This document shows positions 11,430-12,542 of a stretch of DNA of 64,000 nucleotides, in pieces. A program made the translations under genes and the position numbers. The first letter of the stretch is position 1; every line of letters begins with the position of its first letter. Source of the DNA: a virus; the IMG/VR virus record IMGVR_UViG_3300032265_002113, positions 1 to 64,000 of that record. One strand, written 5' to 3'. The notes beneath the pieces are model-generated. The model was not told the origin of the DNA, did no database searches, and saw only the letters and a program-made list of their open reading frames with translations.

Positions 11430-11458
11430 TTGACAATCCTCTAATCCTGTGATATAAT
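11430..11458 (+). promoter_or_regulatory. Perfect sigma70 promoter of the tmRNA locus
   Basis: TTGACA (11430-11435), 17-base spacer, TATAAT (11453-11458): exact consensus in both boxes and spacing. The predicted start (11465-11466) coincides with the first base of the tRNA-like stem at 11467. The spacer shares AATC and CTGTG elements with the promoters at 3383 and 6896. It is the only promoter seen for the whole 11.43-11.99 kb non-coding block. Confidence 0.9.
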
Positions 11459-11465
11459 ATATACT

Positions 11466-11559
11466 TTACACACTTATGAACTGGGACATGGCTCAGCTGT
11501 GCAATTAGACTAAGTTCCCACTCTGTGGGTACGGGAGTGAGAATCTCCCTAAGTGTGTA
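11466..11559 (+). ncRNA. tRNA-like domain at the 5' end of the tmRNA transcript
   Basis: A closed fold with a 10-bp end stem: 11467-11476 pairs with 11550-11559 (TACACACTTA with TAAGTGTGTA). Next to it is a T-arm-like hairpin, GGGAG (11533-11537), 7-base loop TGAGAAT, CTCCC (11545-11549), so the 7 bases after the T stem are exactly the acceptor strand, as in tRNA. A second hairpin CCCAC-TCT-GTGGG (11517-11529) sits where a long variable arm would be, and AACT (11479-11482) can pair with AGTT (11513-11516). I cannot fit an anticodon arm, and no CCA follows. It is therefore not an ordinary tRNA; it could be a degenerate tRNA, a decoy, or an extra domain of the tmRNA precursor. Confidence 0.55.
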
Positions 11560-11565
11560 TTTTAT

Positions 11566-11627
11566 TGCTGTATGAAGCAAAGAGAAAAGTGTTCTGGACG
11601 GGGGTGCGAATCCCCCCAGGTCCACCA
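11566..11627 (+). ncRNA. ssrA: Two-piece (permuted) tmRNA, acceptor piece
   Basis: The 3' end shows a T-arm, GGGGG (11600-11604), loop TGCGAAT, CCCCC (11612-11616), then the acceptor strand CAGGTCC (11617-11623) and discriminator plus tail ACCA (11624-11627). That strand pairs over 7 bp with GGGCCTG at 11802-11808, about 180 bases downstream, including a G-U pair at the third position, the alanine identity element of tmRNA. TGTTCTG (11590-11596) pairs with CAGAGCA (11820-11826), and TGCTGT (11566-11571) with ACAGCA (11843-11848), giving a broken P2 helix. The order acceptor piece first, coding piece second is that of circularly permuted tmRNA genes. The 5' end of the mature piece is my estimate. 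Confidence 0.85.
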
Positions 11628-11639
11628 TAAGGAAATTTG

Positions 11640-11813
11640 ATGAAATTGGAAAAAGTAAAACAGTATTTTGTTGTAGTAGACAAAGATGACACAGTAAAAA
11701 GAGTGTGTTGGGCACCTTTACTTTGGGATATGACTAAACGTGGATATCGTTTTACAGGATTTAAAGGATTGAATTATCCTCTTCCAAAGTTTCTTTATGT
11801 TGGGCCTGCATAG
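11640..11813 (+). CDS. 57-residue ORF inside the tmRNA intervening segment
   Basis: ATG 11640 follows AAGGAAATTTG, whose AAGGA ribosome site begins 2 bases after the CCA of the acceptor piece. The frame ends at TAG 11811-11813, inside the coding piece, so its last codons (GGG CCT GCA TAG) are the tmRNA acceptor strand and D region. The product is basic and aromatic (begins MKLEKVKQYFVVVDKDD, later GYRFTGFKGLNYPLPKFLY), with codon use like the phage background. It fills nearly all of the segment that must be removed to mature the two RNA pieces. No family is recognised. A chance frame cannot be excluded. Confidence 0.5.
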   Translation: MKLEKVKQYFVVVDKDDTVKRVCWAPLLWDMTKRGYRFTGFKGLNYPLPKFLYVGPA

Positions 11814-11967
11814 TTTCGACAGAGCAAAGAGTAACAGAGTGGACAGCACGGTAGGCGATGACCGTTAATCAAGCAAAAAACGTAAATGCAAACGACTCCG
11901 CATATCGCCTAGCTGCTTAAGCTAAGCTGAGGTTTCGCCGACTGTCCTTATTATCCAATCAGTCGGC
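11802..11967 (+). ncRNA. ssrA: Two-piece (permuted) tmRNA, coding piece with tag ORF
   Basis: Starts with acceptor strand GGGCCTG (11802-11808) and the conserved D-like GTTTCGACAG (TTCGAC as in all tmRNAs). A pseudoknot-type stem ACGGT/ACCGT (11848-11852 with 11861-11865) precedes the A-rich stretch AAGCAAAAAACGTAAAT. The resume codon GCA (11888) opens the tag ANDSAYRLAA, ended by TAA 11918-11920; U at -5 and A at -4 before GCA match the conserved upstream element. A P5-type stem (CCTAGC with GCT-G-AGG, or TAGCT with AGCTA) encloses the stop. An 8-bp hairpin (11937-11944 with 11960-11967) ends the structured region. Known role: with SmpB, tmRNA rescues stalled ribosomes and tags the product for proteolysis. 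Confidence 0.88.
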
Positions 11968-11990
11968 ACATTAAGTAAGAAAGGAAACAA

Positions 11991-12542
11991 ATGCGAAGTA
12001 AACCAATACTTTTCAGCATAGTAGTTTCCGCAATAGTTCTTTGCCTCTCCATGGTAAATATTAATTTTAGAATTCCTCTAAAAGCTAATTATCAGGATCT
12101 CACTGAGGCAACAAAGAGGCAGGTTACATGCCTTGCAGAGAACATTTACTTTGAAGCTGGACATGAACCATTGAGTGGTAAACAAGCTGTTGCTTTTGTT
12201 ACCATTAATCGTGTTCAATCCGGTTACAGTAAAGATATTTGCGGAGTTGTTCATCAAAAGTCGGGAGAGACCTGTCAGTTTTCCTGGTTGTGTGATAAAA
12301 ACATTACCAGTAAACGCTTGACAATTAGAGATAGTTCGTTGTATAATGAAGTTCGTGAGTTAGCCGTGGACATGATTCTAAATCGTGACCTCAAGGAAGA
12401 TGTTACACAAGGTGCAACATACTACCATGCTGACTATGTAAATCCTCATTGGCCTTACAAGAAAGTAAAGCAAATTGGTGCTCATATTTTCTATGTAAAC
12501 CATGCGGATAAAATTGACAGAAATAGGAGTTTTTATGAATAA
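11991..12542 (+). CDS. SleB-type cell-wall hydrolase (probable endolysin)
   Basis: 183 residues. N-terminal signal-anchor at about residues 5-22 (PILFSIVVSAIVLCLSMV), then a Hydrolase_2/SleB domain with the hallmark NIYFEAGHEPLSGKQAVAFVTINRV (catalytic Glu about 55) and CQFSW, followed by TYYHADYVNPHW. SleB enzymes are lytic transglycosylase-like and cut the glycan strand of peptidoglycan. The uncleaved-looking anchor suggests export by the host Sec system, like SAR endolysins. AAGGAAACAA precedes the ATG 24 bases after the tmRNA hairpin, so it may share the tmRNA promoter. The gene contains another sigma70 promoter (12318). Confidence 0.8.
   Translation: MRSKPILFSIVVSAIVLCLSMVNINFRIPLKANYQDLTEATKRQVTCLAENIYFEAGHEPLSGKQAVAFVTINRVQSGYSKDICGVVHQKSGETCQFSWLCDKNITSKRLTIRDSSLYNEVRELAVDMILNRDLKEDVTQGATYYHADYVNPHWPYKKVKQIGAHIFYVNHADKIDRNRSFYE
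12318..12347 (+). promoter_or_regulatory. Intragenic sigma70 promoter
   Basis: TTGACA (12318-12323), 18-base spacer, TATAAT (12342-12347), inside the SleB-like gene and preceded by GC as in the other copies of this promoter type. Predicted start near 12354; it would supply the small membrane protein, gp33 and gp59 genes downstream. Confidence 0.65.

Follow-up and report, generated by a model that had tools for sequence, protein, structure and literature searches.

What does a phage keep between the two pieces of its tmRNA gene, in a stretch that is predicted to be excised during maturation? The question arises at one locus of a T4-like lake phage, within the 64,000 nt of viral DNA analysed here (hereafter the window), where an earlier note had read positions 11566-11967 as a permuted two-piece tmRNA under a perfect promoter.

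The tmRNA gene and its phage

The identification was borne out. Positions 11566-11920 gave a full-length match (model 1-213) to the Rfam model RF04321 (tmRNA_permuted) with 129.9 bits and an E value of 4e-25, the gathering cut-off being 47 bits, and RF01850 (beta_tmRNA) matched 11514-11973 with 86.6 bits, which is marginal compared to its cut-off of 84. ARAGORN reported a permuted tmRNA (tmRNA*) with the tag ANDSAYRLAA. The check with covariance models and ARAGORN that the earlier note had proposed was therefore positive on both counts. The features of the gene, all on the + strand, are as follows.

11430-11458 (+): candidate sigma-70-type promoter, TTGACA-17-TATAAT, assigned solely by its 12/12 consensus match
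11467-11559 (+): structured 5' leader element between promoter and acceptor piece (fold -33.1 kcal/mol, z -2.7)
11566-11627 (+): tmRNA acceptor piece, CCA-terminated (RF04321, ARAGORN, sequence)
11600-11616 (+): T-arm, uninterrupted (sequence)
11617-11623 (+): acceptor 3' strand CAGGTCC, followed by A and by CCA at 11625-11627 (sequence)
11802-11920 (+): start of the tmRNA coding piece (sequence, ARAGORN, RF04321)
11802-11808 (+): acceptor 5' strand GGGCCTG (sequence)
11815-11820 (+): TTCGAC (sequence)
11888-11920 (+): tag ORF ANDSAYRLAA with resume codon GCA at 11888 and stop TAA at 11918-11920 (sequence, ARAGORN)
11937-11967 (+): hairpin GCCGACTG...CAGTCGGC after the tag (sequence; the RF01850 match runs to 11973), either still within the coding piece, as its 3' part, or a terminator lacking a T-run

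Apart from the promoter, the tag frame and TTCGAC, the earlier note had described a 7-bp acceptor stem with G3-U70 and a 7-bp P2-like pairing, and both are present: the first as GGGCCTG/CAGGTCC, the second as TGTTCTG (11590-11596) with CAGAGCA (11820-11826), including one G-U. It had also proposed looking in related phages for compensatory changes in the stem formed by 11617-11623 and 11802-11808. These were found, with the versions CAGGTCC/GGGCCTG, CACCTCC/GGGGGTG, CATCTCC/GGGGATG and CAGCTCC/GGGGCTG occurring among relatives and nearly always 7/7 paired. The mature window tmRNA is presumably in two pieces.

The leader element has a closing stem of about 10 bp and a tRNA-like outline; ARAGORN made no tRNA call for it and it was not recognised by Rfam. 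It is kept upstream of the tmRNA in two relatives (L013, L016) and replaced by other sequence in a third (L015). A second perfect promoter-like site, TTGACA-18-TATAAT, was seen at 12318-12347 inside the endolysin ORF (11991-12542).

The baseplate protein of the window phage is closest to those of the Pelagibacter phages HTVC008M and Mosig, and of the Methylophilales phage Melnitz, and the gene order PhoH - exonuclease - tmRNA - late transcription coactivator - helicase loader is largely common to the window phage and this group, which together place the phage near them. Similar to the window, the ssrA genes of Melnitz, HTVC008M and Mosig encode a two-piece tmRNA between exonuclease and late transcription coactivator. 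A survey from 2022 had already found 53 two-piece tmRNAs among 18,146 phage genomes, mostly aquatic and including Melnitz (PMC9004378). Thus, the permuted tmRNA of a T4-like phage with a consensus promoter holds as an identification but not as a novelty, because it is of a published kind.

Protein-coding intervening sequences

Between the CCA and the acceptor 5' strand lies the intervening sequence (IVS), with the following features.

11628-11801 (+): IVS of 174 nt, predicted to be excised in maturation (from its position between CCA and acceptor 5' strand)
11628-11638 (+): 5' strand of the IVS closing helix, UAAGGAAAUUU, pairing with 11787-11797 (minimum free energy (MFE) fold of 11597-11808, z -3.48; covariation)
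11630-11633 (+): Shine-Dalgarno (SD) sequence AGGA (sequence; same position in 74 unique IVSs; pairing probability)
11640-11813 (+): 57-aa ORF, family P0001; its stop codon (TAG, 11811-11813) falls within the mature coding piece
11787-11797 (+): 3' strand of the IVS closing helix, AAGUUUCUUUA, doubling as ORF codons (MFE fold, covariation)
11798-11801 (+): UGUU, the last four nt of the IVS ahead of the acceptor 5' strand; a variant of the near-universal UGAU (122/152 unique IVSs)

We defined a coding cassette as an IVS with an SD directly after the CCA, a start codon about 10-16 nt after the CCA and an ORF open to the IVS end. The window IVS opens with TAAGGA directly after the CCA (11627), which places the SD at 11630-11633, followed by ATG at 11640 and a frame open through 11801. 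A protein search of IMG/VR returned 11 relatives of P0001, all of them (11/11) at the equivalent place in a permuted tmRNA; two, L002 and L005, match the alpha tmRNA model (RF01849) and not the beta model. Omega was 0.15-0.5 for most diverged pairs. The window copy may be under relaxed selection because most of the few changes that separate it from L002 and L011, its closest relatives, alter amino acids (omega about 2). The predicted secondary structure of the 57-aa protein is beta-beta-alpha-beta-beta. AlphaFold2 reached a pLDDT of 80 in one model of the family only (48-56 in the others), and with Foldseek the model matched nothing in PDB or BFVD at E <= 0.001. The ORF had no match in Pfam or PHROGs, nor in cultured phages by tblastn. 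An identity as an ArfA-type rescue factor was rejected on the absence of a Pfam or PHROGs match and of a confident fold match. Most likely, the protein is an early phage accessory protein.

Related loci were collected from IMG/VR with a pattern of T-arm, CCA and AAGGA, in which neither a start codon nor an open frame was required. Counting ORFs that start at a suitable distance from the SD and extend to within 14 nt of the IVS end, 61 of the 74 unique SD-bearing IVSs had an ORF reaching the IVS end, compared to 7.4 expected from shuffled interiors and a maximum of 19 over 100,000 draws. For IVSs of at least 120 nt, the ratio was 31/40, with 0.7 expected. The 13 exceptions include five IVSs with two tandem ORFs (L142, L161, L181, L206, L210) and three with a later-starting ORF of 101-151 aa. 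L132 has a single IVS ORF, and this is a homologue of the second ORF of L161. In three long IVSs (L116, L171, L187), ATAAATA, as found in T4-type late promoters, comes shortly ahead of the start codon of a 101-151 aa ORF. Such a promoter (TATAAATA) as the general driver of IVS genes was rejected, since the window shows no enrichment of the motif (3 copies, 6.8 expected).

By clustering, the IVS ORFs form about 37 unrelated families, a figure that counts two families as one cluster because both share a tail of tmRNA origin. Domains were recognised in three ORFs, namely thioredoxin (L150; 4e-21), CxxCxxCC (L101; 1e-6) and GNAT (L187; 8e-6), and these ORFs truly lie inside tmRNA genes, since covariance-model matches span their IVSs (136, 82.9 and 95.6 bits, respectively). 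Most other comparable families had an omega of 0.06-0.45, indicating purifying selection; several pairs of the TM_HVF family had 0.6-0.9. Many of the shortest ORFs encode single hydrophobic helices of 22-29 aa and belong to several families (L123, L140, L117, L121, L045, L145, L149 and others).

When the sample was picked by the coding piece instead of the SD, 25 of 74 unique IVSs were coding and about two thirds were non-coding. Applied to marine alpha-type phages, the same kind of search used an overly strict coding-piece pattern and yielded no more than 27 parsed unique IVSs, of which five were coding. Some non-coding IVSs (L016, L055) resemble degenerate tRNAs, and that of L055 contains GGGTTCGAGTCCC. 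The cultured phage Melnitz (MZ577097) has a coding IVS as well: similar to the window, GGAG is followed by ATG and an ORF that continues past the RNase P site, but this ORF is unrelated in sequence to P0001 and unannotated, the annotation there being tmRNA only. The IVS of L349 contains a homologue (dN 0.12, dS 0.35). The IVSs of HTVC008M, Mosig and DLP6, in contrast to that of the window, are short and non-coding.

Two comparisons revealed exchange of the IVS. Between the window and L015, the acceptor piece is 100% and the coding piece 99% identical and the IVSs are unrelated; between the window and L002, the IVS is 95% identical and the two pieces only 69% (acceptor) and 76% (coding). The IVS thus behaves as a cassette, since unrelated IVSs sit in near-identical backbones and one IVS sits in diverged backbones.

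Bacterial IVSs, similar to the phage ones, are often a hairpin ending in TGAT. Of 398 genomes of one bacterial phylum, 136 had a strong permuted tmRNA match with a median model span of 216 nt (longest 332), whereas the window tmRNA spans 355 nt (RF04321) and its IVS is protein-coding. The IVSs read in that sample were mostly hairpins of 5-60 nt, and, apart from one trivial frame of 23 codons, the longest parsable ones were devoid of SD-led ORFs. The SD pattern, run over 84,980 genomes in a form tuned to the phage T-arm type and not exhaustive, gave five matches, four of which resemble the 3' ends of one-piece tmRNAs. The fifth, L304, lies on a contig with phage-like genes, which identifies it as phage or prophage sequence within a MAG. 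With the sole permuted tmRNA match on such a contig, a bacterial origin of coding IVSs was rejected; as far as tested, the coding IVS is a phage feature.

Closing helix, stop codon and RNase P cut

Whether or not an IVS is coding, its two ends pair immediately beneath the acceptor stem, and in the MFE fold of the window precursor the acceptor stem and the IVS helix form one long hairpin in which the SD is paired. Many pair types occur per helix position, which indicates covariation. The ends of coding IVSs paired at 94.1% with their own partners compared to 81.2% (sd 1.0) with swapped partners, the corresponding values for non-coding IVSs being 90.9% and 70.7% (sd 1.2). The helix was significantly weaker in coding than in non-coding IVSs (-6.5 vs -9.6 kcal/mol, p ~1e-11). 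Across 75 coding IVSs, the SD had a pairing probability of 0.96 in the precursor; shuffling the sequence downstream lowered it to 0.49, and deleting the last 18 nt to 0.23. The weaker helix of coding IVSs together with the burial of their SD suggests that a balance has been tuned between the needs of folding and those of translation. As non-coding IVSs have the helix too, it has a role in processing either way, and its influence on translation may be a by-product.

The position of the stop codon was compared with the predicted RNase P cut; both this cut and that at the 3' end were transferred from other permuted tmRNAs. Of the families without an earlier stop, 18/24 end at UGA one nucleotide before the RNase P cut (chance 1/3, p 4e-5). 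In the remaining ones, which include P0001 and the Melnitz ORF, the frame continues into the coding piece. A stop loss specific to P0001 was rejected: its frame reads UGAU as Asp and for this reason reads through past the IVS end, reaching its TAG 10-12 nt beyond the predicted cut at 11801/11802. A nonstop outcome is therefore not general, given the 18 of 24 families that stop before the cut; RNase P cleavage of P0001- and Melnitz-type IVSs would be predicted to yield nonstop mRNAs.

We consider it probable that the locus is a phage permuted two-piece tmRNA gene whose IVS is an exchangeable protein-coding cassette, with translation tied to the folding and processing of the precursor. The strong promoter would give one transcript, folding into a long hairpin of acceptor stem, ACCA/UGNU and 11-bp IVS helix, from which, following the scheme put forward for permuted tmRNAs, RNase P and a 3' tRNA-processing enzyme would free both tmRNA pieces. 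The IVS would double as a small mRNA on which the SD directly after the CCA drives translation of the 57-aa protein. In the folded precursor or the excised IVS, translation would be damped because the ribosome-binding site lies within the IVS helix, and it would occur upon opening of the helix. Normally terminated 57-aa protein would be made from uncut transcripts only, since its stop lies beyond the predicted site of RNase P cleavage. Ribosomes translating cut IVS RNA would reach its 3' end without meeting a stop codon, which would make them substrates of the tmRNA.

An alternative explanation, possible though doubtful, is that the IVS genes are real but are passive cargo at a tolerated insertion spot behind a good promoter, the helix serving processing only and translation being uncoupled and unregulated. 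The extreme turnover of content (about 37 families, cassette swaps), the presence of the same helix in non-coding IVSs and the tandem ORFs of some IVSs would be expected of such cargo; that coding IVSs keep the SD inside the helix and yet have a significantly weaker one, and that SD burial is far above shuffled controls, would not.

It is very improbable that the phage tmRNA does no tagging and serves as a decoy to titrate away host SmpB or alanyl-tRNA synthetase, with the IVS ORF as an unrelated passenger. Such a decoy would need neither the complete tag frame nor its stop, both of which are kept, and tags of the ANDxxxxLAA type occur in most relatives. In its favour, a tRNA-like-only molecule of phage DS6A has been reported to inhibit tmRNA (PMC4131195, PMC11915505), and no SmpB gene was found in the 66-kb phage record, which is possibly incomplete. 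Without a SmpB gene in that record, host SmpB would be needed for the window tmRNA. Control of host ribosome rescue by the phage, which the earlier note had taken to be implied, may still follow from the gene.

Least credible, to the point of being nearly dismissed, is that the ORFs are untranslated chance frames in a structural spacer: in the shortest IVSs (~60-90 nt) an open frame could arise by chance, hydrophobic peptides are favoured by T-rich ends and the omega values of TM_HVF fit, but the excess of open frames over shuffled interiors, most of all in IVSs of at least 120 nt, the three recognised domains and omega values well below 1 in most comparable families argue against it.

Taking the coupling of translation to precursor processing further, we tentatively propose that the phage permuted tmRNA gene is a processing-coupled expression device, a reading that we hold unlikely as it stands. 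The IVS protein would come from the uncut precursor only, with the ribosome-binding site locked in the processing helix and the stop removed or abutted by RNase P. Any product of cut RNA would be tagged and destroyed by the tmRNA of the same transcript, and the cassette protein would report on, and perhaps act on, RNase P or ribosome-rescue capacity in the course of infection.

Relation to known systems and significance

In its layout, the window gene is similar to other permuted tmRNAs (RF04321, RF01850 beta, RF01849 alpha), with acceptor piece, IVS and coding piece in this order, G3-U70, a T-arm and a tag frame. Other genes nested in tmRNA genes have been described. Homing-endonuclease genes (LAGLIDADG) occur in self-splicing group I introns in the T-loop of tmRNA (PMC11915505) and, similar to the window ORF, are protein genes within a stretch removed from a tmRNA precursor. 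However, an intron with a homing endonuclease was rejected here, as the T-arm is uninterrupted and the ORF lacks a Pfam or PHROGs match; the site is a permutation spacer with many unrelated small proteins. A tRNA-Ala in the IVS of one permuted tmRNA, a single unique case, and one repetitive element in an IVS were reported in the same work (PMC11915505). The tRNA-Ala likewise shows an IVS housing another gene, but it is an RNA gene found once, compared to protein ORFs of many families. In E. coli, RNA processing of arfA makes a nonstop mRNA, and the gene is repressed by trans-translation (PMC10107115). The likeness is one of logic only: the two are unrelated in sequence, RNase III is involved instead of RNase P, and the window ORF lies within the tmRNA gene itself, its nonstop outcome being a prediction.

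A protein-coding IVS is not mentioned in the open-licence literature on permuted and phage tmRNA that we covered (PMC9004378, PMC11915505, PMC4131195, PMC3985003), and a text search of the Melnitz paper (PMC9004378) found no mention of an intervening sequence. As this scope was open-licence papers, the novelty of the coding IVS is likely rather than certain.

Permuted tmRNA spacers, so far treated as discarded RNA, are here a recurrent and exchangeable site for phage protein genes, whose translation signals are embedded in an RNA-processing helix. Coding IVSs are thus a new source of small phage proteins, which annotation misses because the stretch is labelled as tmRNA, as in Melnitz. The coding IVS of Melnitz makes the idea testable in a cultured phage. 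With two non-coding RNA pieces and an mRNA on one transcript, competition among RNase P processing, translation and trans-translation would be directly testable.
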